The notes under the pieces: generated by a model
What the model was told of the DNA's origin: nothing
The model's input: only the letters and a program-made list of their open reading frames with translations
The model's database searches: none
Shown: positions 39,637-60,599 of the stretch, piece after piece
Layout of the letters: each line of letters begins with the position of its first letter
Position numbering within the stretch: the first letter of the stretch is position 1
Made by a program: the position numbers and the translations under genes
Assembly: GCA_022870745.1 (NCBI GenBank)
Contig: CP085323.1
Span: forward strand, 2,976,001-3,040,000
Origin: Silvibacterium acidisoli
Lineage (GTDB): Bacteria > Acidobacteriota > Terriglobia > Terriglobales > Acidobacteriaceae
DNA length: 64,000 nt
Reading direction: 5' to 3'

Positions 39637-39707
39637 ATTCATTCAACAACTTACGAGTTTTGCGGTTAATTCTTAAAGGTCCCGAAAGGTCCATTAAGAG
39701 GCTGCCC

Positions 39708-40913
39708 TCAATTCGCACCGATCTCCTCCCTCAACATTCCCGCCACCCTGGACTGCGCCTGACGCTTGGCAGGCGTGACCGCCTGCGCATAAACCTCAAG
39801 CGTCATCTTGATCGTGGCGTGCCGGAGAAGCTCCTGCACCACCTTGATGTCCTCGCCGTTGGCTTTGAGGAGAGTGGAGAATGTTCGCCGGAATGTATGC
39901 CATCCGACGTGCTTCAGAATCTTCGCCCGCTTAACCGCGGGACGGATATGACGCTTCAGGAGTGAATCGGGGCTATAGGGCTGCTTTCCTCTCATGCGCG
40001 TACTCGCGAAGACCCAGTCCTCCGGCTGGTTATAAGGGGTAGCCCTCTTCCAGGTAAGAAGTTCCTCGGCGATCCACGGATCGAGAGGGACCGGCTTGCG
40101 CGAGATCTCCGTTTTGCAGCGGCCAACCACCTGCCGATAGATCGACCGCGTGACCGCCAGCTCCAACTGCTCGAAATTGACATCGAGCCATTTGAGAGCC
40201 ATCAGTTCACTCCGGCGAAGACCGGTGACGGAATCGAGCAGGACCATCACGCGCTCCCGATGAGATAACTGATCGAAGAGCAGACGGAGTTCCCCAGCAT
40301 CGAGGACGTCCGGAATCTGCATTCGCTTCGCGCTCTGCCGCACCATTGTGATCGGGTTGCTGCCCAGAGGCATCAACTCATGACGGATGGCGTGATTGAA
40401 CAGAACGCTCATGACCGATCGGATCTTCGCCTTGCTTCCGCGCGACAGGTCATCCTTACTCTTACCTGCGCGCTTCAGATTACGAAGCCATTTTTCCACC
40501 TGTGTGGTTCGCACTTTACGCATCTCGATCTCGCCCCAATCGGGAAGAACGTAAGCATCAAGGATGTCGATATAGGTCGTCCTTGTAGCGTAAGAACGGC
40601 CTTCGTCCTCTTCCTCTTCGTTCTTGATCGGGCCAAGCTCGTGCTGCTTGAAGTGACCGATGAGAGCGCCCACCGTGATTGGCTGCTTTGCCGATCCCGG
40701 TTGCTCTTCGTTGATGGTTATGCGTAGAGCTTCCACGGCCTTCATTGCGCTCGTCTCGGTCGGATACTCCTTGACCGTGCCCAGCGTCTTCGTCCGGCGT
40801 ACCCGTTGCCCGCTGGTGTCGATATCCCACCAGCGAAACGCCCAGCAATCCGGGCCGTGCTTCCGCTTCACGCGGCTTAACATTCCTTGTTGATACCGTG
40901 TCCGTCGAAACAT
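39708..40913 (-). CDS. Tyrosine site-specific integrase
   Basis: The 401-residue recombinase has an N-terminal SAM-like/Arm-type region and core-binding domain. The catalytic domain shows R233 in TGLRRSEL, the beta-hairpin lysine near 273, HTFR at 339-342, H365 in ELLRHATIK and the nucleophile Y375 in LEVYAQA. All catalytic residues are present. It ends 72 bases from the tRNA. Its start overlaps the excisionase stop (TAATG). The product should integrate and excise the element at tRNA-Ala. Confidence 0.93.
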   Translation of the reverse strand: MFRRTRYQQGMLSRVKRKHGPDCWAFRWWDIDTSGQRVRRTKTLGTVKEYPTETSAMKAVEALRITINEEQPGSAKQPITVGALIGHFKQHELGPIKNEEEEDEGRSYATRTTYIDILDAYVLPDWGEIEMRKVRTTQVEKWLRNLKRAGKSKDDLSRGSKAKIRSVMSVLFNHAIRHELMPLGSNPITMVRQSAKRMQIPDVLDAGELRLLFDQLSHRERVMVLLDSVTGLRRSELMALKWLDVNFEQLELAVTRSIYRQVVGRCKTEISRKPVPLDPWIAEELLTWKRATPYNQPEDWVFASTRMRGKQPYSPDSLLKRHIRPAVKRAKILKHVGWHTFRRTFSTLLKANGEDIKVVQELLRHATIKMTLEVYAQAVTPAKRQAQSRVAGMLREEIGAN

Positions 40914-41856: not shown

Positions 41857-41988
41857 CACTTAATCTTGCATCGACCAACGCCGCGAATGGCTGGCAGAAG
41901 ACCTCTCTGCTGTTGGCGCAGCAATGCCAATACTCTCCTCATCTTCAAAATCCATGGCTCTGCGCATCGCCCGGACACTGCGTCGGGT

Positions 41989-42172
41989 CTTAGCCGCCGC
42001 CCGGCGGCACGGCGCGGCTCTGCTTTTCCGGCTTTCAGAAAATCTTTTTGATCGATCTGCCGCAAAGAGCGCGTGGCAGAAAAAGATTTTCCGAACCTTC
42101 CGAAAAAGCGCCGCTTGGCCTTGGGAGGCGGGCCCCTCGCATCGCTTCGCGTGGTGTGTCCCGGTCGACTTC
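41989..42172 (+). repeat. Long hairpin repeat, copy 1, upstream of the orphan methyltransferase
   Basis: This segment aligns at roughly 75-80 percent with 54117-54302. It contains long imperfect arms (about 42022-42052 and 42076-42109) of AT-rich sequence with a loop that includes CCGCAAAGAGCGCG. A more GC-rich downstream part carries TCGCTTCGCG and GTGTCCC. The whole sits in the 347-base gap before the methyltransferase gene, otherwise without a gene. See findings for the proposed role as a single-strand promoter. Confidence 0.85.
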
Positions 42173-42203
42173 AGAGACATGGGGACCAAAGGAGATTTCA
42201 GAG

Positions 42204-42902
42204 ATGGCAACCACGAGCGCAGCAACCACACAGCAGAGCAGCCTCACCAACACGATCCTTCACGGCAACTGCATCGACGAAATGCACGAGATGCCCGCAA
42301 ACAGTGTCGACTTCATCCTCACCGACCCGCCCTATCTCGTGAACTACCGGGACCGAAGCGGGCGCACGATCCAGAACGACGTAAAGGCAGACTGGCTCAA
42401 GCCCGCGATGCAGGAAGCCTATCGCGTATTGAAGCCGAATCGCGTTGCCATCATGTTCTATGGCTGGACGAAAGTGGATGAGTTCTTCGCAGCCTGGAAA
42501 GAGGCGGGGTTTCAGCCGGTGGGTCACATCGTCTTCCGCAAGACCTACAGCTCGAAGTCGAGGTTTCTCAGCTATCGGCACGAGCAGGCATTCTTGCTGG
42601 CAAAGGGCAGGCCGCCATTGCCGAAGCAGCCGGTAGCGGATGTGATCGACATGCCCTATAGCGGCAACAAGCTGCATCCCACTCAGAAGCCGATACAGCC
42701 TCTAGCGCAGTTGATTCGCAGCTTTACTCTACCGGGCGAGCTGGTGCTTGATCCGTTCGCAGGCAGTGGCAGCTCATGCGCAGCGGCATTGCTGACAGGC
42801 CGCAGATATCTCGGCGTAGAGATGGATGATGAGTATTACCAGCAGGCTAGCGAGCGCATGGCCAGAGTGCATGCAAGGACCGCCATAAGGCGGTCCTCTT
42901 AG
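42204..42902 (+). CDS. Orphan DNA methyltransferase, beta class, DPPY motif (adenine-N6 type)
   Basis: The start at 42204 is supported by AAAGGAG at 42188-42194. The 232-residue product shows the order motif IV before motif I, as in beta-class amino-methyltransferases: LTDPPYLVNY (about 38-47) then LDPFAGSGSS (about 190-199). DPPY favours adenine-N6 over cytosine-N4. No restriction endonuclease gene lies nearby, so it is an orphan enzyme, as often found in conjugative elements for escaping host restriction. A hairpin lies inside the last codons (42878-42897) and may act as a weak terminator. Confidence 0.88.
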   Translation: MATTSAATTQQSSLTNTILHGNCIDEMHEMPANSVDFILTDPPYLVNYRDRSGRTIQNDVKADWLKPAMQEAYRVLKPNRVAIMFYGWTKVDEFFAAWKEAGFQPVGHIVFRKTYSSKSRFLSYRHEQAFLLAKGRPPLPKQPVADVIDMPYSGNKLHPTQKPIQPLAQLIRSFTLPGELVLDPFAGSGSSCAAALLTGRRYLGVEMDDEYYQQASERMARVHARTAIRRSS

Positions 42903-42906
42903 TTCG

Positions 42907-43039
42907 GCATTCCCACCTGGTGGGATGTTGCCGCGTGTTCGCCACGCCTCAAGGCGAGCTGTCTCTGTCAGTCATGGTGCTTGCAGCCTTGACCCGCAGC
43001 GCACCCGCGGATTTCTTTGCTGTTCATGGTGGGAATGCC
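42907..43039. repeat. Inverted repeat pair in the 307-base gap before virB2
   Basis: Two perfect 12-base inverted repeats, 42907-42918 and 43028-43039, are 109 bases apart. The left arm also overlaps a local dyad, TCCCACC-T-GGTGGGA, at 42912-42926. They sit in the gap between the methyltransferase and the virB operon. Otherwise this gap holds no gene that I can support. Confidence 0.6.
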
Positions 43040-43086
43040 CATGTCCGCGCATGCGCACTCCGGTAAAAATCGATGCCTCTGGATTA

Positions 43087-43114
43087 TTGACGCGGATGAA
43101 ATAGCCGGTACGAA
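43087..43114 (+). promoter_or_regulatory. Possible promoter of the virB operon
   Basis: TTGACG at 43087-43092 and TACGAA at 43109-43114 are spaced 16 bases apart, roughly sigma-70-like, about 100 bases before virB2. This rests on weak similarity only and was not tested. Confidence 0.3.
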
Positions 43115-43209
43115 ACGGTAAGAATCGACCGCCTATTTCTCGCCTATCTTCACCAAAGCACGAAACACCGAGAGTGGCCACTCGACGGTACATCACCAAG
43201 GAGACTCCT

Positions 43210-43545
43210 ATGGAGAGCACCCGTCCGTCGATGCGAAGTCGTGTCCTTATGTGGGCACGCCGTCGCCGCCTAACCCGATACGCAGCCCCGCTGCTTCTGC
43301 TGTCCGCCCTTCCGGTCTACGCCCAATCGACGGGCAGCGACCCGTGGGACAACGCAGTCAACGTCCTCAAAACCGCGTTTACCGGAACGATTGCGCAGGG
43401 GTTGAGCCTCGTCGCCATTGTCGTCGGTGGCCTGATGTTCGCCTACGGCGAAGGCCAGTCCAAGAAGACCCTTGCCGGCATTGTGTTCGGCGTGGGCATG
43501 GCAATAGGCGCAGTCAATTTTATGGCCTGGTTATTCCCCGGCTAG
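43210..43545 (+). CDS. virB2: VirB2/TrbC-like prepilin subunit
   Basis: I use the ATG at 43210 with AAGGAG just upstream; an earlier in-frame ATG at 43174 lacks one. The 111-residue protein has a basic N-terminus and a long signal sequence ending ALPVYAQS. Two hydrophobic helices follow, IAQGLSLVAIVVGGLMF and IVFGVGMAIGAVNFMAWLF, the pattern of TrbC/VirB2 pilins. It is the conjugation pilus subunit and the first gene of the operon. Confidence 0.85.
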   Translation: MESTRPSMRSRVLMWARRRRLTRYAAPLLLLSALPVYAQSTGSDPWDNAVNVLKTAFTGTIAQGLSLVAIVVGGLMFAYGEGQSKKTLAGIVFGVGMAIGAVNFMAWLFPG

Positions 43546-43559
43546 AAGGAGGTGATCCA

Positions 43560-43874
43560 TTGTCTCAGTCAGCGGAACGTCGCGTGAACCCTGTGTACAA
43601 GGCCATGAACAGGCCGCTGACTGTCCTGGGAGCAGAGCGGCGATTGTTCTTCGTCGCTCTGATCTCGGGAGGATCGATCTTCTCTCTCCTGCATTCCCTC
43701 ATCGGTGGCATCGGGCTGTTCATCATTGGTGTCATCATCGCCCGCATTGCCACCAAGCACGACGTAGAGATTCTGCGGGTGCTCTTCAACAGCAGCAAGT
43801 TCCGCAGACGTTACGACCCCATGAAGGCCGACACGCTGCAGGTCCGCATAGCGAGGCGCGATGTACAAGATTGA
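43560..43874 (+). CDS. virB3: VirB3/TrbD-like T4SS inner membrane protein
   Basis: The frame has no ATG at the right place. A TTG at 43560 preceded by AAGGAGGTGA (43546-43555) gives a 104-residue protein beginning SQSAERRVNPVYKAMNRP, with two closely spaced hydrophobic helices (residues about 30-62) and a basic tail. This is the short VirB3 topology. The last 14 bases overlap the virB4 start, as is common, since VirB3 and VirB4 often function together and are sometimes fused. Confidence 0.8.
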   Translation: MSQSAERRVNPVYKAMNRPLTVLGAERRLFFVALISGGSIFSLLHSLIGGIGLFIIGVIIARIATKHDVEILRVLFNSSKFRRRYDPMKADTLQVRIARRDVQD

Positions 43875-46317
43875 GCATAAAGACTGGAACGAGGCTGGAT
43901 CGTTCGCCGCCCAGGTAAACCTGTACGGCTTTTGGGACGAGCACTGCTTCTTGACGAAATCGGGCGACCTTGGATGCGCATTGAAGATCGGCGGCATCGA
44001 CTACGAGAGCCTCGACCATGCCGGTCTCGATTACGCAGTGAAGCGTCTGGAAGCTGCGCTCCGCTCGCTCGACGACAAATGCCGCCTGTATCAAATCCTG
44101 TTCAAGCGCAACCGGCCCGCGATACCGCACGCGGAGTATGAGAACCCGCTGGTGCGCGCGGCTGTCGAGCAGCGCAGCGCGTTCCTCGCGTCGAAGTCAG
44201 AGCGTCTTTACTCGATTGAAATCTTCTGGATTCTCATGGTCGATGGCAGCTTCCAGAAGACCGGGCTGTTGCACGCATTGTCGCAGTTACCGAAACACCC
44301 CCGCGCCTCGCTCCGCGAGTTGCGTGCTCTTTTCTCCGGCAACAAAGAACGCTCTCTGCTGTACGAGCAGGTCGAGCGCGACCGGATGCGGTTGCAGCAG
44401 AAGGTGAACAGTTTGAGTGGACAGCTAAACGACCTCATGACGGTCGGGCTGCCAGGGGCGGAGGAGACGTTTCGCATATTGCGCCGTCTCGTGAACCTCC
44501 GCCCCTCCAAAATTGACGATGCGCCGCTCTGCAATGCGCGACATCTCGACTGGCAGGTCTGCGATTCGGAGCTGGAAGCCCACCGTGGTTACCTGCGCCT
44601 CGATGACGACTACGTCCGGGTCCTCACGCTCAAAGAACTGCCGTCCGAGACGCGGCCGCTGCTGTTGCAGGGGCTGCTCGATGTTCCGGCGAACTTCCAT
44701 GTCGTCACCGAATGGCATCCCGTCACCAATGAGAAGGCACGCAAAGAAATCGCCTCGCGCCGCAGGCATCACCACAACTCGAAGACCAGCTTCGTCAGCA
44801 ATCTTCAGGACCGCGATAACAAGGGCAACCAGGACAACCTCGTAGATGACTCCAAAGCCGCTGCCGTCGCGGAGCTTGGCAACGCACTCACCGCGATGGG
44901 CATGGAGGGCAAGAACTTCGGCGAGCTCACGCTATCCGTCGTGATCTATGACGAAGACCACGTGAAGGTGGAACACACCATCGCGGAGTTTCAGAAGCTG
45001 TTCACGCAGCATGACGGGCTGCTGTACCAGGAACGTTACAACCTCCTCAATGCGTTCTTCGCCACCATCCCCGGCAATAGGCAGTTCAACCTGCGCAAGC
45101 AGTGGGCGCTTAACTCGAACTACGCCGATCTGTCGTTCCTTTTCACGGTGGATACCGGCAGCGCGTGGAACCCGCATCTTGAACGCGAGTACCTCGCCGT
45201 CCTCGAATCCACCCACGGCACACCCTACTATCTGAACCTTCACAGCGGCGATGTCGCGCACACATTGATGCTGGGAGCTACAGGCTCAGGCAAAAGTTTC
45301 TGCGCATCGATGCTTCTGCAGTCGGCGCAGAAGTATGAGCCGCTGACGTTCGTCTTCGACCTTGGCGGCAGCTACGAAACATTGACGCGCGCCTTCGGCG
45401 GATCGTATCTCAACGTCGGCCTGAAGAATCCGGGCTTCAGCATCAATCCCTTGTCACTCGAAGCCACACACGAGAACCTGAACTTCCTGTTTCTCTTTCT
45501 GCGCGTGCTGATCGAAGGCGGTGGACGCTATGAACTGACGACAGCCGATGAGAAGGCGCTCTTCGCGGGGCTGGAGCGCATCTATAAACTCCCGCGCGAG
45601 ATCAGGACGCTCACCAACTTCGCATCCATCCTCGGCCCGCTGGGTGAGCGGCTGCACCGATGGACCCAGGCGGGACAGTTCGGCTATCTCTTCGACAACG
45701 TAGACGACACGTTGACCTTCGCACGCTTCCAGACCTTCAACTTCGACGGTTGGTCTGACTACCCGGACATCCTGGAACCGCTGCTGTTCTATGTGCTGCA
45801 GCGTGCGTCTTCGAAGATCGAGATATCCGAAAATGTCGGCACGTTCAAGCCGTTCCTGATCGACGAAGCGTGGATCTTCCTTAAGAACAAGATCATCCGC
45901 GACTGGATCACGCGCGCCGAAAAGACGTGGCGCAAGAAGAACGCCGCCATGATTCTGGCGACGCAGTCGGTCGTGGAACTGGCCGCTTCCGACATGCTGC
46001 ACATCATCAATGAGTCCTGCCCGACGAAGATATTCCTCGCTAACCCCAACATCGACCGCAAGCTCTATGCCGAAATCTTCCAGTTGAACGACACGCAGCT
46101 TGAGTTGCTGGAGTCGCTCGTGCCCAAGCGTGAGCTGCTGGTCATCCAGCCGCGCGGGACTAAGAAATTGGTTTTGGAAGTCGACGCCCTCAGCTACTGG
46201 ATGGCGACGAACAACGCCCGCGACAACATCCGCAAACAGGATTACTTCAATCGCTTCGGCCCAGAGCAGGGACTCCTGCGTCTGGCCGAGGACTACCCCA
46301 ACCCACTCAACCGCTAA
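43861..46317 (+). CDS. virB4: VirB4/TrbE conjugation ATPase
   Basis: The 818-residue ATPase has an N-terminal CagE/TrbE domain and a C-terminal P-loop domain with Walker A GATGSGKS at about residues 471-478 and Walker B FLIDEAWIF at about 665-673. A TQSV motif and SCPTKIFLANP follow, as in the family. VirB4 energises pilus assembly and substrate transfer at the inner membrane. It is co-translated with virB3. Confidence 0.95.
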   Translation: MYKIEHKDWNEAGSFAAQVNLYGFWDEHCFLTKSGDLGCALKIGGIDYESLDHAGLDYAVKRLEAALRSLDDKCRLYQILFKRNRPAIPHAEYENPLVRAAVEQRSAFLASKSERLYSIEIFWILMVDGSFQKTGLLHALSQLPKHPRASLRELRALFSGNKERSLLYEQVERDRMRLQQKVNSLSGQLNDLMTVGLPGAEETFRILRRLVNLRPSKIDDAPLCNARHLDWQVCDSELEAHRGYLRLDDDYVRVLTLKELPSETRPLLLQGLLDVPANFHVVTEWHPVTNEKARKEIASRRRHHHNSKTSFVSNLQDRDNKGNQDNLVDDSKAAAVAELGNALTAMGMEGKNFGELTLSVVIYDEDHVKVEHTIAEFQKLFTQHDGLLYQERYNLLNAFFATIPGNRQFNLRKQWALNSNYADLSFLFTVDTGSAWNPHLEREYLAVLESTHGTPYYLNLHSGDVAHTLMLGATGSGKSFCASMLLQSAQKYEPLTFVFDLGGSYETLTRAFGGSYLNVGLKNPGFSINPLSLEATHENLNFLFLFLRVLIEGGGRYELTTADEKALFAGLERIYKLPREIRTLTNFASILGPLGERLHRWTQAGQFGYLFDNVDDTLTFARFQTFNFDGWSDYPDILEPLLFYVLQRASSKIEISENVGTFKPFLIDEAWIFLKNKIIRDWITRAEKTWRKKNAAMILATQSVVELAASDMLHIINESCPTKIFLANPNIDRKLYAEIFQLNDTQLELLESLVPKRELLVIQPRGTKKLVLEVDALSYWMATNNARDNIRKQDYFNRFGPEQGLLRLAEDYPNPLNR

Positions 46318-46325
46318 GGAGCCTT

Positions 46326-47078
46326 ATGTCCCGTTCGCCTCTCTTTCCATTGCTGCTCGGTCTTGTCGCCACTGTTGCGCACGGCCAGCAGACCGCCCGT
46401 GTCGTGAAGTACCACGCCAACGACATTGTCAACGTCCGCGCGAAGATGCGCTACACCACGCTGATCGAGCTGCCCTCGACGGAGAAGATTCTCGAAGTCG
46501 CTACGGGTGACAAAGACTTCTGGATCATCAACCCCGTGGGCAATTACTGTTTCCTGCATCCGGCCAAGGAAGGCATCCACTCCAACCTCAACCTGATTAC
46601 CGACAAGGGCACGGTCTACTCGTTCACACTCGATGATGTCGAATCGGGCGATCCAGACCTCAAGGTCATCATCGAGCCGTCCGACCCATCTTCACTTGCC
46701 GCAGCGAATGGCGCGGGCAAGCTCGTCTCCGCCGCCGAAGTCACTGCTGCCCAGGAACAGGCGCAGGCAGCGAAGACCCATGCTGCTGCTGCCGTTGAGC
46801 AGTTCCGCTCGGAGTATCCCACGTCCGCTCTCAAGTTCGATTACAGCTTTCGCGACAAGAAGCCGTTCGATGTCTCGGCGATCTATCACGATGACAAGTT
46901 CACGTACATCAAGTCGTCGGCCTCGGAGAAGTTCTCCGTGTATGAACTGAAGGACGGCAAGCCCGATCTCATCACCTTCCAGCTCAAGGACGGCACCTAT
47001 GTCCTGCCCACCGTTGTCGATAAGGGCTATCTCCAGATCGGCAAGCGCAAGCTCGACTTCGAGCGGAAGGGCGAGTGA
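46326..47078 (+). CDS. virB9: VirB9/TrbG outer-membrane core complex protein
   Basis: The 250-residue protein has a signal peptide ending VAHGQQ, an N-terminal domain with VNVRAKMRYTTLIELP (the VirB9/TrbG start), and a C-terminal beta sandwich (PLEVSAIYHDD-type sequence to RKLDFERKG). With VirB7 and VirB10 it forms the outer membrane pore. No small VirB7 lipoprotein is visible next to it. Confidence 0.9.
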   Translation: MSRSPLFPLLLGLVATVAHGQQTARVVKYHANDIVNVRAKMRYTTLIELPSTEKILEVATGDKDFWIINPVGNYCFLHPAKEGIHSNLNLITDKGTVYSFTLDDVESGDPDLKVIIEPSDPSSLAAANGAGKLVSAAEVTAAQEQAQAAKTHAAAAVEQFRSEYPTSALKFDYSFRDKKPFDVSAIYHDDKFTYIKSSASEKFSVYELKDGKPDLITFQLKDGTYVLPTVVDKGYLQIGKRKLDFERKGE

Positions 47079-48349
47079 TGCCGATGGCAGACGAAAAACC
47101 CACACCCGCTCTGGAGTCGCAGGCTGCAAGTCCCTCCCCCGACAACACCACTGGTCTGAAAGATAAGCGGACCAGGCCGGAGGGCGTTGTCCCCAAGCAG
47201 GCCCAGGGCTACGTGATGGCAGGGCTCGCTGTGCTCATCCTGATGGCCGTTATGTTCTCGAAGAACCATGCCAAGCCTGCACCGAAAGAAGCGGTGACAT
47301 CCCCTCTGGCCGTGTCCACCGATGCTAATCAGCGGAAGATACAGGAGCTGGAGCAGGACCTGAGCGCCGACCAGCGCCAGAGCCAGCAGCAGGCGCGGGA
47401 TGAAGCCGCCATCGCTCCCGTTGCCGGTTCCTCCACCATCAATCCCGCTACCGGGCAGCCCGTCCAGCCCGGCGTGGCTCCTGCTGCGCAGTTGCAGCCG
47501 GTCGTTGCGCCAGCGGAGCCGCCACGCGATCAGGTCGCGGATGCAGAGAAGGCGATGGCCTTCCGAGCGCGCTTCGCTTCGAACCTTGTGACCGCCGATG
47601 ATGGCGCCGCGCGCCCATCGGTCGAGTCGCTCGGCGCTGGAGAGAACGCACCGGCTCGCTCTTCGAGCTTGCCGGCGACGCCGCCAACACAGGCCGCAGC
47701 CACTGTGAGCAGCGATGCAAAGAAGCGTGCGCCCGAAGTGAACATCAACAATGCCCATGGCCAGCCCTACGTGGTTTTTGAAGGCACAAGCATCGATACG
47801 GTGCTGGTCAACAGATTGGACGGTGAGTTCGCGGGCCCGCTGAAAGTGATGGTCACCAATCCCATCTACAGCCAGGACAGGCAGCACATGCTTGTCCCCG
47901 AAGGGACCTTCATCCTCGGCGATGTGCAGAAGGTGGGTGGCCTCGGCCAGAAGCGTCTGGCTGTCACCTTTCACCGCATGCTAATGCCCGATGGCTATTC
48001 CGTCGATCTCGACCAGTTCCACGGTCTGGATCAGGCCGGAGCCACCGGACTGAAAGACAAAGTCAACAACCATTACGTGGAGATCTTCGGCGCGTCGATT
48101 GCGCTGGGAATTATCTCCGGAGCAGCCGAGGCAACGAACGCCAACCAGGGCTACAACGAGACCGGCAGCGAAGCCTACAAGCAAGGCATCTCTTCCAGTC
48201 TCGCGCAGTCAGGTGCGACCGTACTCGATCGCTTCATCAACATCCCGCCCACCATCACCATCCGCGAAGGCCACCGGATCAAGGTGTACATCACGCAGGA
48301 CATGCTCCTGCCTGCGTATGAAAACCACACCATGCCCAGCAGCTACTGA
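47078..48349 (+). CDS. virB10: VirB10/TrbI core complex protein
   Basis: The ATG at 47078 overlaps the virB9 stop (TGATG). The 423-residue protein has a cytoplasmic start, one transmembrane helix (QGYVMAGLAVLILMAVMF), a long Ala/Gln/Pro-rich periplasmic linker, and a C-terminal beta-barrel domain with VPEGTFILGDVQKV and the typical RLAVTFHRMLMPDG. VirB10 spans both membranes and links the ATPases to the pore. The extended linker is typical of the TrbI branch. Confidence 0.93.
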   Translation: MPMADEKPTPALESQAASPSPDNTTGLKDKRTRPEGVVPKQAQGYVMAGLAVLILMAVMFSKNHAKPAPKEAVTSPLAVSTDANQRKIQELEQDLSADQRQSQQQARDEAAIAPVAGSSTINPATGQPVQPGVAPAAQLQPVVAPAEPPRDQVADAEKAMAFRARFASNLVTADDGAARPSVESLGAGENAPARSSSLPATPPTQAAATVSSDAKKRAPEVNINNAHGQPYVVFEGTSIDTVLVNRLDGEFAGPLKVMVTNPIYSQDRQHMLVPEGTFILGDVQKVGGLGQKRLAVTFHRMLMPDGYSVDLDQFHGLDQAGATGLKDKVNNHYVEIFGASIALGIISGAAEATNANQGYNETGSEAYKQGISSSLAQSGATVLDRFINIPPTITIREGHRIKVYITQDMLLPAYENHTMPSSY

Positions 48350-48409
48350 CCTTTGTTCGCTCTTGCTTCGCGCCGTTGCTTGCGCCTGCGCTCACCGAAA
48401 GGACTTGTT

Positions 48410-49246
48410 ATGAAACTCCATCTTCCTGTCGCCGCTCTTCTCCTCACGCTCGCGCCGCTGGCGCATGCGCAGTTCGGCAGCGGTATCGTCTTCGACCCCA
48501 CGCAGTCCGCCCACGCTCTGCAACAGATCGAGCAGGCGTCCGAGCTGTACACGACCGCCGTCGATACCCGCAACCAGATTGTCACCATGTACAACCTCGC
48601 CCACCAGATGGCCCAAATGCCACAGAATCTCGAAGCGCGGTACAAGGCTGACTGGTCGCAGTGGACCAGCCTGCAGGCCCCGGCTAACACCTATGGCAAT
48701 ACCGCGGCGCTGGTGAACGCGCTCAACTTCGGCGTTCTCGCCAACGCACAGCAGGGATACAACAGCGCCTACATTCAGGCGCAGAGCTATCCCTCGGGCA
48801 GCTACTCCTCGCTCGATGCCCGGACCCAGGCGACCGTCGCCAATCAGTACGCCACATCGGAGCTGGCGCAGACAACGACCACCAACACGCTTGCGACGCT
48901 CGGCACCATCCGCACGAACGAGCAGCAGTTCGCTGCCAAGCTGTCGAATCTCGATTCGGATACCTTCTCGCTCAATTCCAGCCAGCAGACAGAGGCTGCT
49001 CTGCTCGGCAAGATCAACTCCGCCACGCTGCTGCAGATCCATTCGCAGATGGATGCCAATCAGCTTCTCGCGGCTTCCATTCAGCAGCAGCTCATCGCGC
49101 AGAAGGAGCAGATCGACGCCCGCAATCGGGCACTCAATAACGCCATTTACTTCCAGCAGAACTTTGCAACGGCCATGCAAAACGTGAACAACGGCGTAAG
49201 CGAATCGATGCACTCCATCTCGCTCAGCATCAACGGGAGCTACTGA
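48410..49246 (+). CDS. virB5: VirB5/TrbJ-like pilus-associated protein
   Basis: The ATG at 48410 gives a signal peptide (LLLTLAPLAHAQ) and a 278-residue secreted protein of helical coiled-coil character, rich in Gln and Ala. FDPTQSAHALQQIEQASEL and MAQMPQNLEARYKADW resemble TrbJ. VirB5/TrbJ proteins cap the pilus tip or help recognise recipients. The stop overlaps the next gene start. Confidence 0.8.
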   Translation: MKLHLPVAALLLTLAPLAHAQFGSGIVFDPTQSAHALQQIEQASELYTTAVDTRNQIVTMYNLAHQMAQMPQNLEARYKADWSQWTSLQAPANTYGNTAALVNALNFGVLANAQQGYNSAYIQAQSYPSGSYSSLDARTQATVANQYATSELAQTTTTNTLATLGTIRTNEQQFAAKLSNLDSDTFSLNSSQQTEAALLGKINSATLLQIHSQMDANQLLAASIQQQLIAQKEQIDARNRALNNAIYFQQNFATAMQNVNNGVSESMHSISLSINGSY

Positions 49247-50067
49247 TGGGACAGAACATCATCGCGCAGCTCGGGCAGGCTGTCACGCAACTGCTCTCCT
49301 CGCAGGGCAACACCCTTCAGGCCACGGGACTCGACATCTTCCGTGGCCTGGCCACCATCCTCATCGCATGGTTTGGCATCAAGGCAGCTCTGTCCGCCTC
49401 GCAGGGACTCGGCGGTTTTCACTTTGCCAAATTCGCCGACTTGATTCTGATGATCTCGCTTGGCCTTGGCATGCTCACCTACTACTCAACGCCGATCCCC
49501 GGCACGAGCTACAGCTTCTCCGACCTTGTCACCAAGGAAGGACTCAGCCTGGCTACGAAGATCGAGTCCGACCAGACGCAGGAGATCGCAACCACCATCA
49601 CCAACGCCGAGCAGACGCTCGGCCAGCCTCCGGGCAGCTTCAACATCCTTGAAGACATGACCTATCTGCTCGTGGCAGTCATCCTTGCTGCGATGGAGGC
49701 CGTCGCGTTCTCTGTCATCGCCTACGGCTATGTTGCCGCCGCCGTCTGCGTGCTCATCGGTCCGGTCTTCATCCCCTGGTTCATCGTGCCGAAGATGGAC
49801 TGGCTCTTCTGGGGATGGCTGAAGGCATTTATTGGTTTCAGCTTCTATCAGGTCGTGGCGTCCGCGTTTATTTATGTCTTCGCTCATGTCCTTGCGGCGA
49901 TGTTCCAGATGATCGGCCCCATCACCATCGAAAACGCCCTTACCATCCTGCCCGCACTGTTCATCACTTTGTTCGTGTGCGTCTATGGCCTCTACAAAAT
50001 CCCTGAGCTGACATCCGCTGTTCTGAGCGGTCGCACTGGCACCTGGGTCAACCTTCACGGAGATTAG
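49246..50067 (+). CDS. virB6: VirB6/TrbL inner-membrane T4SS protein
   Basis: The 273-residue protein has at least five hydrophobic helices: GLDIFRGLATILIAWFGIKA near residue 35, LILMISLGLGMLTYY, then LLVAVILAAMEAVAFSVIAYGY and AAAVCVLIGPVFIPWFIV (each in two parts), and a final VSAFIYVF region. It is the polytopic channel component at the inner membrane. Its ATG overlaps the VirB5 stop. Confidence 0.85.
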   Translation: MGQNIIAQLGQAVTQLLSSQGNTLQATGLDIFRGLATILIAWFGIKAALSASQGLGGFHFAKFADLILMISLGLGMLTYYSTPIPGTSYSFSDLVTKEGLSLATKIESDQTQEIATTITNAEQTLGQPPGSFNILEDMTYLLVAVILAAMEAVAFSVIAYGYVAAAVCVLIGPVFIPWFIVPKMDWLFWGWLKAFIGFSFYQVVASAFIYVFAHVLAAMFQMIGPITIENALTILPALFITLFVCVYGLYKIPELTSAVLSGRTGTWVNLHGD

Positions 50068-50069
50068 CC

Positions 50070-50753
50070 ATGCCCACTCAGCAAAAGCCCTTCGCCACCG
50101 AAGCCGGACACAAGTTCCTAGAGCTGTATGCCGAGCCTGTCGTCACCAATAGCTATCTCAAGGTGGCACTGCTCGTACTCTCCGTCGTCACGCTCGCTTC
50201 GCTTGTGCTCCTCTATCGTGCGCAGACAGCAGCCCTCCATCTAAAGCCGATTGTCTTTGCGATTACGGACATAGGGCGAGCGCAGCGGCTGAATCTTGAT
50301 TCCACGTCCATCCCCATCGAGCAGGTCAGCAAATACTATCTCGCGCAATGGGCGGAGCTTTACTACGGGCGCAATCACGCGACGCTGCGGAAGGATTTCG
50401 GAATCTCGCTGAACTTCTTCTCGGACGAGAAGCAGAACGCGACGCTCAATCAGGTCAGGAAGGACAAGACGCTCGACAACTTCCTGCTCGACCCGAGCAC
50501 ACCGAACGTGGACATAGCGATCAAGGCCGTTGTTCTCGACGACACAAGGCAGGCCCCATATCGCGCCCACATCGAGTTCGAGAAGGTTTTCTATTCGCCC
50601 GGCGACCAGCAGGAACAGAGCCGCGAACGCTGGACCGCGAACGTGGTCTACAGCTTCCGCGATGCTGTGCCAAACGACATGCTGCTCACCAACCCTCTGG
50701 GTCTCGTCATCAGCTACGTCCATGAAGACCAGGCATTCGGGAGCGGCTCATGA
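50070..50753 (+). CDS. virB8: VirB8/TrbF T4SS bridge protein
   Basis: The 227-residue protein has a short cytoplasmic start, one transmembrane helix (LKVALLVLSVVTLASLVLLY) and a periplasmic domain with FFSDEKQNATL and the late NPLGLVISYVHEDQA. This is the VirB8/TrbF layout, linking inner-membrane parts with the core complex. It is the last recognisable structural VirB gene of the cassette. Confidence 0.88.
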   Translation: MPTQQKPFATEAGHKFLELYAEPVVTNSYLKVALLVLSVVTLASLVLLYRAQTAALHLKPIVFAITDIGRAQRLNLDSTSIPIEQVSKYYLAQWAELYYGRNHATLRKDFGISLNFFSDEKQNATLNQVRKDKTLDNFLLDPSTPNVDIAIKAVVLDDTRQAPYRAHIEFEKVFYSPGDQQEQSRERWTANVVYSFRDAVPNDMLLTNPLGLVISYVHEDQAFGSGS

Positions 50754-51130
50754 AACCGAAGATCCCTGTTCTCCTCTACTGCGCCGACCGCGAGCTGTTG
50801 TCTTCAACGGCATTCGCGTTGCGCTTGCAGCCGTACGCTGTGACTGCTGTTGACGATAGCCGCAGCGCTACAGCCGTCATGATGTCTAACGACCTCGTCT
50901 GCGGCATCCTCATCCACGCGAAGCAGGGCGATCTCGCTGGTCGGCTTATACACCGGCTGCTCGAAGCAGACCTCCACGTCCCAGTGTTGCTGGTGGACCG
51001 TGCCGGCGACCTCGCACCCGTCCGCTACGCGGACATGGTGCTCTATGGCCGCAATACAACGATGGCGCACATCCTCGGCGCGCTCTCTGTGCTCTGCGCG
51101 CGGAAGCGCGGTCCACGGAGTGCTGCGTGA
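50750..51130 (+). CDS. Pseudo-receiver-like protein
   Basis: The 126-residue protein overlaps the virB8 stop by four bases. Its strand-helix pattern fits a CheY-like receiver (IPVLLYCADRELL, then AVDDSRSATAVMM, ILIHAKQGD, VPVLLVDRAGDL). However, the phosphoacceptor position at the end of strand 3 is His (ILIH) instead of Asp. It would be a phosphorylation-independent receiver or simply a flavodoxin-fold protein. Function unknown; coupling to the next gene suggests a link with it. Confidence 0.5.
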   Translation: MKPKIPVLLYCADRELLSSTAFALRLQPYAVTAVDDSRSATAVMMSNDLVCGILIHAKQGDLAGRLIHRLLEADLHVPVLLVDRAGDLAPVRYADMVLYGRNTTMAHILGALSVLCARKRGPRSAA

Positions 51131-51969
51131 ACGAGGTGGTGTACATCGGCGGATTCTCAGGCGGCATCGACTCGCAGGCCGCCGCGCGGTTCATGCTGAA
51201 CCGATACGGTGCTGCCTGCGTCGTTCTCGTCAATGCCGATGCCGGTGGGAACGAGCATCCGCTCACTGACGAGCACATCGGCTGGTATTCCGAGCACGTA
51301 CAGCCCGTCATCAGAATTACGGCCAAGATCGGCGACTTCCGTACAGACGGCTGGTGCGAACAGAAGGGACTCGACCCGGCAGCTACTTTGACGTTCCCTG
51401 AGCTGGCTCGCATCAAAGGCCGCTTTCCATCACGCCGTGCGCAGTTCTGCACCGAAGCATTGAAGCTGGCTCCCATACGCCGATGGCTTGAAGAGCATTA
51501 TCCAGACGGCAACTATGCGCGCTTCACTGGCGTGCGCCGCGATGAATCGCTGGCACGCTCCGATCGCCAATGGCACGAATGGGACGACTTCTACGATTGC
51601 GAGCTCTATAACCCGGTCTATGACTGGACGAAGCAGATGTGCTTCGACTACGTCCGCGCACAGGGTGAGCAGATCAATCCGCTCTATTCACTTGGATTCA
51701 CGCGCGTGGGCTGCGCGCCCTGCATCAACTCTGGCAAAGACGACATCCTGAATTGGGCGACACGCTTCCCGGAAATGATCGATAAGGTCCGCGCGTGGGA
51801 GCAGTACGTCGGGCGTACGTTCTTCGCGCCCTGCGTGCCCGGCATGGCAGTCAACTGGATCGACGATGTCGTCGCATGGGCAAAGACCGATCATGGCGGC
51901 AGGCAGAACAACCTCTTTCGCATCCTCCCGCCACCGGCGTGTGAGTCGAGATTCGGATTGTGCGAATGA
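51127..51969 (+). CDS. PP-loop ATPase/PAPS-reductase-like protein
   Basis: Starting at GTG 51127, which overlaps the upstream stop, the 280-residue protein has the PP-loop YIGGFSGGIDSQAA (residues 6-19), the nucleotide-binding motif of adenylyl-transferring N-type ATPases. Conserved positions FCTEALKLAPIRR, TGVRRDES and a Cys pair in RVGCAPCINSGK may hold a metal or thiol site. PAPS reductases, DndC and related enzymes share this fold. None of the DNA-phosphorothioation partners is present, so I do not assign a reaction. It overlaps the downstream methyltransferase. Confidence 0.8.
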   Translation: MNEVVYIGGFSGGIDSQAAARFMLNRYGAACVVLVNADAGGNEHPLTDEHIGWYSEHVQPVIRITAKIGDFRTDGWCEQKGLDPAATLTFPELARIKGRFPSRRAQFCTEALKLAPIRRWLEEHYPDGNYARFTGVRRDESLARSDRQWHEWDDFYDCELYNPVYDWTKQMCFDYVRAQGEQINPLYSLGFTRVGCAPCINSGKDDILNWATRFPEMIDKVRAWEQYVGRTFFAPCVPGMAVNWIDDVVAWAKTDHGGRQNNLFRILPPPACESRFGLCE

Positions 51970-53771
51970 GATACCTCTCCGTGTGCTCAGGCATCGAGGC
52001 CGTCTCCGTTGCATGGGGACCGCTGGGCTGGAAGCCTGCCATGTTCGCTGAGATCGATCCCTTCTGCTGCTGGCTCCTTCACTCGCGCTATCGCGCATCG
52101 TGCCCTGTGTACATGCCAAGTCCGCACGACGCGCCCGACCGCAAAGAGGCCAAGCGCCGCGCCGCAGCCATCCGCAACGTGGTTGCTCTGCCAGCTGACG
52201 GCTCGATCGTGAACGCCGGAGATTTCACAAAGATTGGAGCTGACGATGTTGGAGCAATCGACCTTCTGGCCGGAGGAACACCTTGCCAGTCTTTCTCCGT
52301 CGCCGGTAAACGAGCGGGACTGGATGATCCGCGTGGCAACCTTACCATCGAGTTTGCTCGGCTTGCTGGCAGACTCAGGCCCGTATGGTTGGTGTGGGAG
52401 AACGTCCCCGGCGTCCTGTCGATCGACGGAGGGCGGACGTTTGGAGCCTTCCTCGGGATGCTGGTCGAACTCGGGTATGGGATCGCCTACCGAGTTCTTG
52501 ACGCTCAGTACTTCGGAGTACCCCAGCGACGGCGTCGCGTCTTCGTTGTCGGACATCTTGGAAACTGGCGAGCTGCCGCGGCGGTATTACTTGAGCGGTC
52601 GAGCCTGTCGGGGTATCCTCCGCCGCGCCGAGAAGCGCGGAAAGGAGCTGCCGGAGGCATTGAAGTCGGCCCTGGTGGGAGTCGCTTCACGGATACCGCC
52701 CCAACGATCGATACCGGATGCAGGGATGGCCTCACGCGCAATCAACTAGGCGTAGGCATCCTCTCATCGACAGACGAAACATCGCACTGCCTGAACGCCG
52801 GAGGGATGGGCAGACAGGATTACGAGACAGAAACCCTGATTGCACACTCGCTCTCAGCCGATGGCTTCGATGCGAGTGAGGACGGGACCGGGCGCGGCGT
52901 GCCGATGGTGCCTGTCGCCATCAGCACGGCCCATACGAAATCGAATGGCAGCGGCTTCTCCGATCACATCGCGCACACGCTCGAAAGCAGCGGCGCTCAG
53001 GCTGTCGCCTTTGCGCAGAACACACGCGATGAAGTGCGGCTGTACGGCGGTGATGGCAAGACAGTGGGAGCATTGGCCGCACAGCGCGGAGCCAAGCAGC
53101 AGTCCTATGTCGCTTTCTCGGCGGTGGACGATGGCGGTGATGCCGGAACGGTCGCACCTACGTTGCGATCTATGAACGGTAAGGGTGCCCACGCGAATGG
53201 AGGCGGACAGGTAGCCATCGCGTTCGCTCAGAACCAGGCGGGTGATGTTCTCAGCGGAGATGTGATGCACTCGCTCGGAACCAACCCCAACGCCACCGGA
53301 CGTAATGCCGCCACAGTCGCGTTCACTCTGCACGGCAATGATGGGAACGAGAGCACAGCCACCGAGACCGACGTTGCAGGTAGCCTTCGCACCAGAGCGC
53401 CCGGCAGCACCGAGAACAGCTCGACGACCGCCGTGCTGCAGGAGAAACCCGTTGCCTGGTCGGGAGAACTCACCGCATCGACCGATACGCTGGGCACCCT
53501 TCAGCGCGGTGGCGAAGGTGGACGCATGGAAGGCGTGATGATGCCGCAGATGGCCGTGCGCAGATTGACCCCGCGCGAGTGCGAGCGTTTGCAGGGATTC
53601 CCCGACGATTACACGCTGGTGGAGTACCGGGGCAAGCCGGCATCTGATGGGCCACGCTATAAAGCCCTCGGCAACTCCATGGCTGTCCCCGTCATGCGCT
53701 GGATAGGACAACGCATCCAGGCCGTGGATGCAATCCTCCATGACCGCCCCGGCGCCGAGGAGGACGCATGA
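51966..53771 (+). CDS. DNA (cytosine-5) methyltransferase, C5 type
   Basis: The 601-residue enzyme has motif I LSVCSGIEAVS (4-14), the catalytic cysteine C107 in GTPCQSFSVAGKR, ENVPG (145-149), QRRRRVF (187-193), and the late motifs IX (RRLTPRECERLQGFP, about 531) and X (ALGNSMAVP, about 567). Between 200 and 530 lies a very long variable region with repeated TL-G-VAF-like segments, as in phage and mobile-element enzymes of this family. The start ATG 51966 overlaps the PP-loop gene stop. No restriction endonuclease is visible. Confidence 0.93.
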   Translation: MRYLSVCSGIEAVSVAWGPLGWKPAMFAEIDPFCCWLLHSRYRASCPVYMPSPHDAPDRKEAKRRAAAIRNVVALPADGSIVNAGDFTKIGADDVGAIDLLAGGTPCQSFSVAGKRAGLDDPRGNLTIEFARLAGRLRPVWLVWENVPGVLSIDGGRTFGAFLGMLVELGYGIAYRVLDAQYFGVPQRRRRVFVVGHLGNWRAAAAVLLERSSLSGYPPPRREARKGAAGGIEVGPGGSRFTDTAPTIDTGCRDGLTRNQLGVGILSSTDETSHCLNAGGMGRQDYETETLIAHSLSADGFDASEDGTGRGVPMVPVAISTAHTKSNGSGFSDHIAHTLESSGAQAVAFAQNTRDEVRLYGGDGKTVGALAAQRGAKQQSYVAFSAVDDGGDAGTVAPTLRSMNGKGAHANGGGQVAIAFAQNQAGDVLSGDVMHSLGTNPNATGRNAATVAFTLHGNDGNESTATETDVAGSLRTRAPGSTENSSTTAVLQEKPVAWSGELTASTDTLGTLQRGGEGGRMEGVMMPQMAVRRLTPRECERLQGFPDDYTLVEYRGKPASDGPRYKALGNSMAVPVMRWIGQRIQAVDAILHDRPGAEEDA

Positions 53772-54073
53772 ACCCTCGGGCACAGCAGACGATACCCGCG
53801 TGTACTTCCGTAGAGCGGATGGATGGTCTCTTCCCGGTCCTTGTCCTCAAAGCCGGAGGCGCTCTGCGCGCCCTTGACATCGTCGTCCCTTCCCAAGTCC
53901 ATCGCGTTCCGGGTTGCCAGGAAAGATGCAGTGCAAGGGATGGCGTCGTTCACCCGTCCTCTGCTTTTGCAGCCCGTGTAGGTAGCTACCGACATGAGCG
54001 CCCAGTCACCCGTCTGGTTGCATCGGCATCCTGCACCTGGGCCGCACAGCAGGACATTTTCATAGAGCGCCAT
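53657..54073 (-). CDS. Doubtful ORF opposite the methyltransferase end
   Basis: A 138-codon minus-strand frame starts MALYENVLL, like the start of the nearby ssb (ATG GCN CTC TAY GAA AAY), then continues with a Cys-rich sequence of unknown type. It overlaps the methyltransferase by 115 bases. On the other strand, a frame opening at 53768 stays open all the way into ssb without a stop. Neither is convincing. It may be a decayed inverted piece of ssb. I include it because this 557-base gap otherwise holds only the hairpin repeat. Confidence 0.2.
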   Translation of the reverse strand: MALYENVLLCGPGAGCRCNQTGDWALMSVATYTGCKSRGRVNDAIPCTASFLATRNAMDLGRDDDVKGAQSASGFEDKDREETIHPLYGSTRGYRLLCPRVHASSSAPGRSWRIASTAWMRCPIQRMTGTAMELPRAL

Positions 54074-54116
54074 CTCTCCCCGTATTTTCCCTGCTTTCCC
54101 TCGGTCACTCGCTCTG

Positions 54117-54302
54117 TGCTTAATCCCGCGCCCTGCGGCACGGCGCGGCTCTGCTTTTTCGGCTTTCAGAAAATCTTTTCGGCAGATCTCCGCAAAGAGC
54201 GCGGACGAAAAGATTTTCCGAACCTTCCGAAAAAGCGCCGCTTGGCACTTGGGAGCGGGGCACGTCGCGTCGCTTCGCGCAGGAGTGTCCCGAGGGAACT
54301 TC
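54117..54302 (+). repeat. Long hairpin repeat, copy 2, upstream of ssb
   Basis: Similar to 41989-42172. Its arms (54153-54181 and 54206-54236) are near-complementary over about 29 bases, interrupted by a few mismatches and a two-base asymmetry. The loop again carries CCGCAAAGAGCGCG. The 3' part, with TCGCTTCGCG and GTGTCCC, can form a second small hairpin (GGGGCAC with GTGTCCC). The repeat ends 27 bases before the ssb start. Confidence 0.85.
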
Positions 54303-54328
54303 GGGCAAATACAAACAGGAGAAATGCA

Positions 54329-54742
54329 ATGGCACTCTACGAAAACGAAATCAAGCTGAAGGGCTACGTCGGCAAGGACGCCGAGAGCTTCGCAACCAAG
54401 AACCAGAGCATCTGCGTGGTCTTCTCATTGGCTACCAAGACCGGCTACAAGGACAAGCAGACCAACGAGTGGGTGAACCACACCGACTGGCATCGCATCG
54501 TTGCCTTCGGCAAACCTGCCGAGTACGCGAAGGTCCTGAAGAAGGGCAACTACGTGGAAGTCAAGGGCGAGCTGCGCAGCACCGAGCGTGAGCTTGAGGT
54601 CACCAAGGACAAGAAGAAGAGCAAGATCATCATCCACGATTGGGAGGTCCGCGCCAGCACCGTCAAGCTGGTGGCGAAGCCCGAGAGCTCACGCGCCGAG
54701 AACCTCGATGCCGAGCCGGTCACGGAGGACGACGCGGCTTAG
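54329..54742 (+). CDS. ssb: Single-stranded DNA-binding protein (SSB)
   Basis: The ATG at 54329 follows AGGAGAA at 54317-54323. The 137-residue OB-fold protein has the family pattern IKLKGYVGKDAE, NQSICVVFSLAT and the double Trp/His segment HTDWHRIVAFGK, then AEYAKVLKKGNYVEVKGEL. The C-terminus is acidic (VTEDDAA) but lacks the usual DDDIPF-type tail. In conjugative elements SSB is commonly an early protein that protects incoming single-stranded DNA. Confidence 0.9.
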   Translation: MALYENEIKLKGYVGKDAESFATKNQSICVVFSLATKTGYKDKQTNEWVNHTDWHRIVAFGKPAEYAKVLKKGNYVEVKGELRSTERELEVTKDKKKSKIIIHDWEVRASTVKLVAKPESSRAENLDAEPVTEDDAA

Positions 54743-54772
54743 GCCGCGTTGTCCTCCCTCGGGAGGTGACTG

Positions 54773-55171
54773 ATGCAGCTCTTCGAAAACACCGTCAAGT
54801 TCCGTGGCTTCCTCGTCAAAGATGCCGAGGCTCCGTCCTCCGACCACATTCAAGAGAATTCATTCGCAGTCCTGTTGCTGGCAACCGTTTCCGGCGTGTG
54901 GGACCTCGGCAACAACGAGTGGAACCCCCGCACCGACTGGCATCGCATCATCTGCCCCGGCCCGTTCTTCTGTGGCCTCGTCCGCAGGATGCGGCGCGGT
55001 GAATACCTCGAAGTCGAAGGGGAGCTGCGCAATCAGGGCGGGCCTCGCACAGTAGTCGTCTCGGGCGAATCCCATAGGGTCAGCAAGACCACCGACACGG
55101 TTTATGCAACACGCATCCAGCGTCTGGACCGGCCTGATGCTCTCGTTGATTTCGGCGACAGCGATACCTAG
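54773..55171 (+). CDS. Second SSB-like OB-fold protein
   Basis: The 132-residue product begins MQLFENTVKFRGFLVKDAE, parallel to the first ssb, with RTDWHRIICPGP and YLEVEGELRN at the expected places. It is divergent elsewhere and lacks the basic central part. A GGGAGGTGAC ribosome site lies directly before it, 30 bases after the first ssb, and a terminator follows. Its role, such as heteromer or decoy, is unknown. Confidence 0.8.
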   Translation: MQLFENTVKFRGFLVKDAEAPSSDHIQENSFAVLLLATVSGVWDLGNNEWNPRTDWHRIICPGPFFCGLVRRMRRGEYLEVEGELRNQGGPRTVVVSGESHRVSKTTDTVYATRIQRLDRPDALVDFGDSDT

Positions 55172-58485: not shown

Positions 58486-58499
58486 AGGAGGTGACCCCA

Positions 58500-60536: not shown

Positions 60537-60599
60537 GCTCTTTCGTATTGGCGATGGCAAATTATTGTTCTCAACCCTTCAACCATCCGAGGTATACCC

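Follow-up and report, generated by a model that had tools for sequence, protein, structure and literature searches.

To our knowledge, most work on Frpo-type single-strand promoters has concerned plasmids of enterobacteria. In the leading region of the F plasmid, the transferred strand has long stable hairpins ahead of ssb, Frpo1 and Frpo2, and Frpo2 is described as necessary if ssb is to be expressed early in recipients (PMC9849209). Further Frpo-like promoters have been predicted as T-strand hairpins located before anti-defence, methyltransferase or SSB genes (PMC11541004), the predictions being described as based on similarity to known Frpo/ssi sequences or on a -35/-10 plus UP consensus. 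M.EcoGIX and M.BceJIII are reported to be single-strand-specific methyltransferases (PMC7736820); the methyltransferase discussed below is likened to them by placement, that report describing a plasmid-borne methyltransferase oriented like leading-region genes.

The window analysed here, a stretch of 64,000 nt from Silvibacterium acidisoli, contains two copies of a leader that resembles these hairpins in preceding a methyltransferase gene and an SSB gene, both presumed to guard DNA that has just entered a cell. The first-pass annotation had described them as a repeat of about 185 bp, with an inverted repeat, some 12 kb apart. A repeat search recovered both copies at those places as 61-nt and 52-nt blocks with 90% identity, separated by approximately 12.13 kb, and these blocks are the two longest among the direct-repeat families listed for the window. 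The 28-nt sequence CCGAACCTTCCGAAAAAGCGCCGCTTGG occurs exactly twice in the window, against 0.00 occurrences expected by chance with as many as three mismatches allowed. The genes named for the two copies were also found as described, copy 1 being followed by a DPPY methyltransferase of the PRK13699 family (42204–42902, plus strand; Pfam N6_N4_Mtase, 1e-34; NCBIfam NF010253, 304.7 bits against a cut-off of 244) and copy 2 by ssb (54329–54742, plus strand; SSB family, PF00436, 2e-16). The conserved cores match covariance model R1 at 41970–42165 (176.5 bits) and 54100–54294 (212.7 bits), both on the plus strand. The repeat of approximately 185 bp stands, but the inverted repeat does not end there: the upstream flank of each copy has further complementarity, to the stretch of its gene that contains the Shine-Dalgarno sequence and the start codon, and the foldable unit therefore extends from about 41885 to 42258 for the methyltransferase gene and from about 54041 to 54365 for ssb. 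The foldable leader is thus about 330 nt per copy, larger than first described, and its outer arms span the ribosome site and the start codon in both copies. On the minus strand the two leaders fold with -172 and -167 kcal, respectively, and in both the gene's own flank pairs better than a swapped one. The 5' arm includes a TCT triplet (54150–54152, plus strand, in the ssb copy) that is unpaired and near-invariant in the column conservation of 96 copies; on the minus strand it forms an AGA bulge, a candidate recognition feature. The genome has a third copy, located beyond the window, which precedes another ssb within another T4SS element.

The covariance model has matches in 124 of the 398 Acidobacteriaceae genomes, and the leader family probably resides in conjugative elements of this bacterial family. 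It had been proposed that further copies would lie just upstream of ssb, anti-restriction or methyltransferase genes, persist in homologous elements and be absent before unrelated genes. The copies agree well with this. As assigned by tblastn, the gene after the copy is ssb in 73 and a DPPY methyltransferase in 19 of the 96 examined, so that 92 have the predicted neighbor, and the other four are interrupted or isolated. The leader is kept in homologous elements, 23 of 25 stretches showing it among T4SS genes, and no copy was found to drive a chromosomal gene of another kind; inserted ORFs now follow two copies, L012 and L119, and two others, L051 and L055, are remnants with no gene. An in-frame ATG lies 30–47 nt past the core (median 35) in 86 of the 87 non-redundant gene-linked copies. 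The linkage also holds in the reverse direction when the covariance model is not used, as leaders are present at all 14 of the primase-like genes of class 2 that are near full-length and at 17 of 19 methyltransferase genes. The gene frame is open through 28 of 35 ssb1 copies, but with the other two frames often open too (23 of 35 and 16 of 35) this is not taken as a sign of a fused protein. None of 4227 Rfam families matches the leaders, blastn gives no match to them in 72,556 plasmid records, F included, and a pattern scan of viral contigs gave three hits, all lacking a model match and judged to be chance.

Comparison with F shows resemblances of organization. As in F, the inner stem of the class 1 copies, the class to which the window's element belongs, is A/T-rich, and in F too a DNA methylase homologue and ssb lie on one strand and point to oriT. 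The leading-region DNA methylase of F is 56% identical to the methyltransferase of the window, which matches at least 5000 plasmid records. The acidobacterial leaders differ from F Frpo in having no sequence similarity detectable by blastn, in a fold that extends across the start codon, in the inner stem, which is very short in several class 2 copies, and in their host family, the Acidobacteriaceae. At the level of sequence they are not recognisably homologous to F Frpo. The published predictions of Frpo-like promoters, as far as that report describes them, do not appear to draw on covariation or strand polarity, and the term "acidobacter" is absent from its main text (PMC11541004).

Pairing in the leaders has been maintained through extensive sequence change. 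Changes on both sides are observed at 55 of 65 pairs, giving 628 covarying cells as compared with 187 ± 12 in shuffles. Pairing of the start-codon flank is stronger with its own partner (-54.4 kcal) than with swapped partners (-44.1 kcal), the own partner being within the best 5% in just 32 of the 91 copies in this test. In the window, the minus strand folds better than the plus strand, with z of -4.1 for the ssb copy. The raw difference in strand energy was dropped as evidence, because 300-nt windows in 39001–64000 already show an average advantage of 7.9 ± 12.1 kcal for the minus strand.

The folding strand is instead indicated by the polarity of mismatches. Read on the gene-sense strand, the 1x1 mismatches comprise 83 A.C and 4 G.T, where composition leads one to expect 42 and 45, whereas control DNA farther downstream, available for 89 of 91 copies, has 24 A.C and 46 G.T. 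The A.C skew is present in each of the ssb1, ssb2 and methyltransferase groups. These groups were formed by start letters and are rough: L119 would be counted in ssb2, and L012 probably among the methyltransferases. A count of changes along a tree gave 90 to A.C and 34 to G.T. The nine related F-type leaders taken as a control have the same skew (A.C 15, G.T 1), a further likeness to F. Deamination of the minus strand was considered as the cause; it fits the excess of G-to-A over C-to-T changes (51 and 25) but is insufficient, because T-to-C changes also exceed A-to-G changes on the sense strand (28 and 5 events). The polarity is the signature of selection for folding on the template strand, complementary to the genes. 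A test of this kind needs nothing but sequence to indicate the strand of a hairpin on which folding is under selection, and its expected sign on the nine F-type leaders means that it could be used to seek elements of single-stranded DNA elsewhere among mobile DNA.

These results bear directly on the two alternatives that had been raised at the outset, both of which are disfavored because of the mismatch polarity. A structured 5' UTR acting as a riboregulator in the ssb and methyltransferase mRNA would account for the constant place of the leader before the start codon and for the ribosome site within the hairpin, but RNA pairing would tolerate the G.T mismatches that are depleted here (4 observed, 45 expected) and not the A.C mismatches that are enriched, and we regard this reading as very improbable. 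The sense-strand fold could nevertheless silence read-through RNA as a secondary effect. A double-stranded operator, or a cruciform, bound by a shared regulator would be expected of an element common to two operons of one mobile element; the persistence of pairing through sequence change argues against it, as does the strand asymmetry of the mismatches, a duplex site being expected to be symmetric, and we consider it very improbable. It is similarly hard to credit that the leader is a single-strand recombination site or a miniature mobile element, comparable to attC, that moves these genes. The conserved unpaired triplet, the strand-specific fold and the two remnants that have no gene are of the kind such a site would have, but the copies examined go with ssb and methyltransferase genes in T4SS elements.

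Two further explanations would yield the identical mismatch polarity. The main rival is a priming site for second-strand synthesis, used by the host primase, RNA polymerase or a RepB-like primase of the element, with the linkage to genes being secondary. It is consistent with the strand polarity, and a RepB_primase-family gene adjoins ssb in class 2 elements. This role appears unlikely, however, in view of the near-fixed distance to the start codon in both ssb and methyltransferase copies; moreover, class 1 elements have two or three leader copies, nearly all gene-linked, which priming does not require, and a scan of class 1 proteins gave no RepB_primase. A folded antisense leader RNA, transcribed as the minus strand and regulating the genes, would have a mismatch polarity equal to that of minus-strand DNA; as no Rfam family matches and single-stranded DNA accounts better for the context of T4SS and oriT, we consider it improbable.

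The reading that we favor, with reasonable but limited confidence, is that the leader is an analogue of Frpo of F, a strand-specific, single-strand promoter-like element that serves expression in the recipient. The strand complementary to the genes would enter the recipient single-stranded, and the leader would fold up as a hairpin some 330 nt long, supplying a double-stranded stretch with conserved bulges as the place for transcription to start. RNA polymerase, or a similar enzyme, would then transcribe towards ssb or the methyltransferase gene with the entering strand as template, before second-strand synthesis. Once the DNA had been made double-stranded, the hairpin would be lost and the genes would fall silent. 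In the donor, RNA reading through from upstream would hold both arms, and its fold would mask the ribosome site and start codon and keep the genes off. In protection of the IS10 type, RNA that reads in from outside has its ribosome site and its start codon masked by an inverted repeat, and the inverted repeat of the leaders would act similarly, with the difference that the masking would be a by-product of a fold of single-stranded DNA. Of this scheme, the sequences show the conserved fold with its pairing across the start codon, the strand on which it is selected and its fixed place before the two genes in T4SS elements; the entry of that strand, the start of transcription at the leader and the silencing are inferred.

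The original proposal of a single-strand promoter holds as regards fold, position and selected strand, whereas recognisable -35/-10 boxes were not found: a search of both arms for sigma-70 -35/-10 pairs gave nothing beyond shuffles, a weak test, because it misses the F-type leaders, Frpo of F among them, and the difference from F Frpo in this feature is to be read accordingly. A more tentative possibility, which we would place on the unlikely side, is that the leaders are switches unrelated in sequence to Frpo that act only in single-stranded DNA and do not use sigma-70 boxes, with another enzyme, such as a primase of the element or an alternative form of polymerase, recognising the folded entering strand through the near-invariant bulges, and the fold also keeping read-through mRNA silent in a cell where the element is established. 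Recognition is directly testable through these conserved bulges. The existence of a separate family in the Acidobacteriaceae suggests that using the entering strand for expression is a more general solution or a convergent one.

The first-pass annotation had also placed the hairpin on the strand that enters first. Its folding on the template strand agrees with this, and the order of entry is suggested in class 2 by likeness to MOBF systems and in class 1 by position. Class 2 elements encode a TrwC (MOBF) relaxase and a TrwB-like coupling protein (Pfam, L122) and also have VirB T4SS genes; a relaxase homologue is present in 10 of 12 class 2 stretches, and the other two may be cut or lack it. 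A conserved block reads GTGGAGTGT on its minus strand in 10 of the 12 and resembles the nic region of F, GTGGGGTGT. The MOBF relaxase and the F-like nic motif suggest that in class 2 the template strand, which is the folding strand, is probably the one transferred. For the class 1 element of the window, the order of its genes together with an oriT-like repeat is the basis on which the transferred strand is proposed.

The window's element has an integrase, a T4SS and a coupling protein, and no known relaxase was detected among the class 1 proteins scanned. Its probable integration end is marked by a tRNA gene (39561–39633, plus strand) beside a tyrosine recombinase gene (39708–40913, minus strand), the two together spanning 39561–40913; no exact repeat of at least 13 nt that could represent a second att copy was found at the tRNA end. 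Downstream of the methyltransferase gene, the T4SS genes at 43251–50753 (plus strand) encode VirB3, VirB4, VirB9 (CagX), VirB10 (TrbI), orf297, to which no family was assigned, VirB6 (TrbL) and VirB8. A second, divergent SSB-like gene (54773–55171, plus strand; PF00436, E 0.0044, under the curated cut-off) is in tandem with ssb. It is followed by orf354 and orf353 (55838–57960, plus strand), which have no family; class 1 elements conserve the two in the interval from ssb2 to the oriT-like repeat, and they are possible relaxosome proteins. The oriT-like inverted repeat (57969–58039) has arms at 57969–57984 and 58024–58039 and is conserved among class 1 relatives. Between it and the genes for the type IV coupling protein and the VirB11 ATPase (58491–61505, plus strand) lies a gene for a small protein of 102 residues (58177–58485, plus strand), which from its position is a possible accessory protein.

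The two-copy element proposed in the first-pass annotation was confirmed by a repeat search, in which two direct-repeat blocks, one of 61 nt and one of 52 nt, link the two copies at 90% identity; a 28-nt stretch has exactly two occurrences against a chance expectation of 0.00. Each copy is part of a leader, a foldable inverted repeat of about 330 nt, whose core, the part matched by a covariance model, lies at 41970-42165 in one copy and at 54100-54294 in the other. The genes named as following them were correct: a DPPY methyltransferase (42204-42902, plus strand; NCBIfam NF010253/PRK13699) begins after a gap of 38 nt, and ssb (54329-54742, plus strand) after one of 34 nt. The inverted repeat is also present, but its proposed extent was too short because the ribosome site and start codon are also complementary to the upstream flank of the leader. 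On the minus strand, the template strand of both genes, a single foldable unit spans 54041-54365 in the ssb copy and about 41885-42258 in the methyltransferase copy. The ssb frame (53768-54742) is open across the whole leader, starting at an ATG overlapping the stop codon of a C5 methyltransferase gene; this may be chance, given that relatives often have other frames open as well.

The further copies expected beyond the window were found with the covariance model, built from nine leader copies, which matched 124 of the 398 genomes searched in the family, across 28 of 79 genera. Searches of the order (109 of 298 genomes) and phylum (26 of 396), which share some genomes with each other and with the family search, listed only matching genomes from the window's own family (taken as Acidobacteriaceae). 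Among 27 stretches from a pattern scan of genome contigs, the model matched all 14 labelled as acidobacterial and none of the 13 others. We examined 96 copies (91 without near-identical ones), a part of the matches listed from the family search. According to tblastn of the following 500 nt, the next gene is ssb in 73, the methyltransferase in 19, and neither in 4, and the ssb-linked copies comprise three SSB types (36, 34, and 3 copies). In some relatives the third type (L037, L039, and L060) comes with a leader of its own. Copies in front of unrelated genes had been named as evidence against the proposal; 92 of the 96 precede ssb or the methyltransferase, and none was seen driving an unrelated chromosomal gene. 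Two copies now precede inserted ORFs: in L119 a 397-residue ORF is inserted at the ssb start, and in L012 an ORF reading like an IS110-type transposase separates the hairpin from the remaining ssb leader. Such an ORF splits the leader in both L012 (1472-1674) and L018 of Silvibacterium bohemicum. Homologues of type IV secretion system (T4SS) genes were present in 23 of 25 longer stretches; the remaining two hold L051 and L055, isolated copies without a gene outside any recognized T4SS region, which are remnants or scars.

An in-frame ATG follows the core at 30-47 nt, with a median of 35, in 86 of the 87 non-redundant copies linked to a gene; the remaining copy, L109, has an ssb with ambiguous letters. 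In a reverse test, genes were located by protein alone and then checked for a leader. All 14 near full-length primase-like genes of class 2, a second class of element with a MOBF relaxase, have a leader at the neighboring ssb (in L187 the match is cut by the locus end), as do 17 of 19 methyltransferase genes. The two exceptions are L216, with an internal stop, and L217, the most divergent (49% identity); no unusual fold was found upstream of either gene. The seven primase matches that were short or divergent comprise one with a leader (L199), one with a weak leader match that does not precede the gene (L193), and five with none (L192, L194, L195, L201, and L202).

The leader is a selected fold. 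In 95 aligned copies, 89.0% of cells pair as compared with 76.1 ± 0.3% in shuffles, both sides have changed in 55 of 65 pairs, and there are 628 double-changed cells versus 187 ± 12 in shuffles; slid structures are less than 50% paired. Fitting to the model biases the alignment toward structure, yet the slid and shuffled values are far lower. Outside the model, the flank pairing over the start codon gives -54.4 kcal with its own partner versus -44.1 with swapped partners, and copies of ssb1, one of the groups of ssb-linked copies, give -40.3 kcal with a methyltransferase flank versus -59.1 with their own. Only 32 of the 91 copies had their own partner within the top 5%, a low count that may reflect flanks common to close relatives.

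A mismatch that reads G.T on one strand reads A.C on the complementary one, and G.T(U) is tolerated by RNA and single-stranded DNA. In folds of the 91 copies made without wobble pairs, single mismatches on the sense strand number 83 A.C and 4 G.T in the core (composition predicts 42 and 45). Over the full leader the counts are 184 and 30 (101 and 90 predicted), whereas DNA taken 400-600 nt downstream in 89 of the 91 copies, most of it coding, has 24 and 46. The A.C:G.T skew recurs in ssb1 (105:11), methyltransferase (32:5), and ssb2 (39:13) copies, grouped by start letters, and in well-supported model pairs (183 cells versus 48). On a tree of the copies there are 90 changes to A.C versus 34 to G.T. 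Cytosine deamination is insufficient as the sole cause because T-to-C changes also exceed A-to-G changes (28 versus 5). A control set of nine F-type leaders, made up of F itself and eight chosen among 60 matches listed of at least 5000 records, has 15 A.C and 1 G.T and folds better on the minus strand in every case, although its members are close relatives whose events are not independent; ssb is annotated in the stretch for seven. The raw strand-energy difference was set aside as evidence, since such differences also turn up in windows chosen arbitrarily. That the leader family is template-strand-specific is well supported.

The region with the two window leaders looks like an integrative conjugative element. 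It has a tRNA and a tyrosine recombinase, the T4SS genes VirB3, B4, B9, B10, B6, and B8, the C5 methyltransferase, ssb, an ssb-like gene, orf354, orf353, a small protein, a coupling protein, VirB11, and, between orf353 and the small protein, an oriT-like conserved inverted repeat (57969-58039). All named genes except the integrase are on the plus strand. A second attachment site was looked for without success, and no known relaxase was recognized among the scanned proteins of this element. In class 2 (e.g. L122) the order is VirB4 ... VirB11, leader, ssb, RepB-like primase, small protein, coupling protein, and TrwC relaxase, with a relaxase homologue in 10 of 12 stretches. A conserved block upstream of the coupling protein includes a short inverted repeat in 12 aligned elements, after which the minus strand reads GTGGAGTGT in 10; in F, GTGGGGTGT adjoins an inverted repeat on the minus strand, in the region that we take to be the nic site. 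Because of this likeness, the class 2 minus strand would leave first, with ssb in the leading region. The F ssb and DNA methylase, the latter 56% identical to the window methyltransferase, point to oriT. In class 1, the window type, the folded strand may be the transferred one, which fits the gene order.

The leader anatomy matches an element that works only while its template strand is single-stranded. It would have promoter-like activity in the recipient while that strand is single, duplex formation would silence it, and read-through RNA would have its ribosome site hidden. The same mismatch polarity would be expected if the leader were a priming site or if it were folded as a minus-strand RNA; the fixed spacing to both ssb and the methyltransferase, two kinds of gene, argues for a role in gene expression. 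Single-strand promoter-like elements are the most likely identity of the family. The Frpo-type reading of the first-pass annotation, after the F single-strand promoters, is partly supported. Sigma-70 boxes were not recognized in the leaders, by scoring that misses F as well, and the family is analogous to Frpo without recognizable homology to it. Published work describes the Frpo1 and Frpo2 stem-loops as needed for early leading-gene expression (PMC9849209), Frpo-like elements as lying on the T-strand ahead of genes for SSB and anti-defence (PMC11541004), and plasmid methyltransferases as active on single strands (PMC7736820). Among the papers listed in searches of open-licence literature on single-stranded promoters in Acidobacteria, on Frpo, and on Frpo in integrative conjugative elements, no title or abstract opening concerned an element of this kind.

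Several further genes are of note. The tandem SSB-like genes (54329-55171) have a leader before the first only. The genes orf354 and orf353 (55838-57960), without Pfam or NCBIfam match, are positioned where class 1 elements miss a relaxase; orf354 is 48-88% identical to its relatives (L022, L024, L025, L027, L028, L131, and L133), and the stretch IQIPDAR is invariant among them. The RepB_primase-family gene immediately 3' of ssb in class 2 (L122 10325-11275 and relatives) possibly serves priming in the recipient. Between the window leaders (51127-53771), a PAPS-reductase-like gene adjoins the C5 cytosine methyltransferase; among the class 1 stretches compared, some of them partial, the latter occurs in seven (L022, L024, L025, L026, L131, L133, and L134) and the former in two (L025 and L133). 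About 12-14 kb past the window end (L020), ORFs resembling by eye a second C5 methyltransferase and a Vsr-type endonuclease form a possible restriction cluster.
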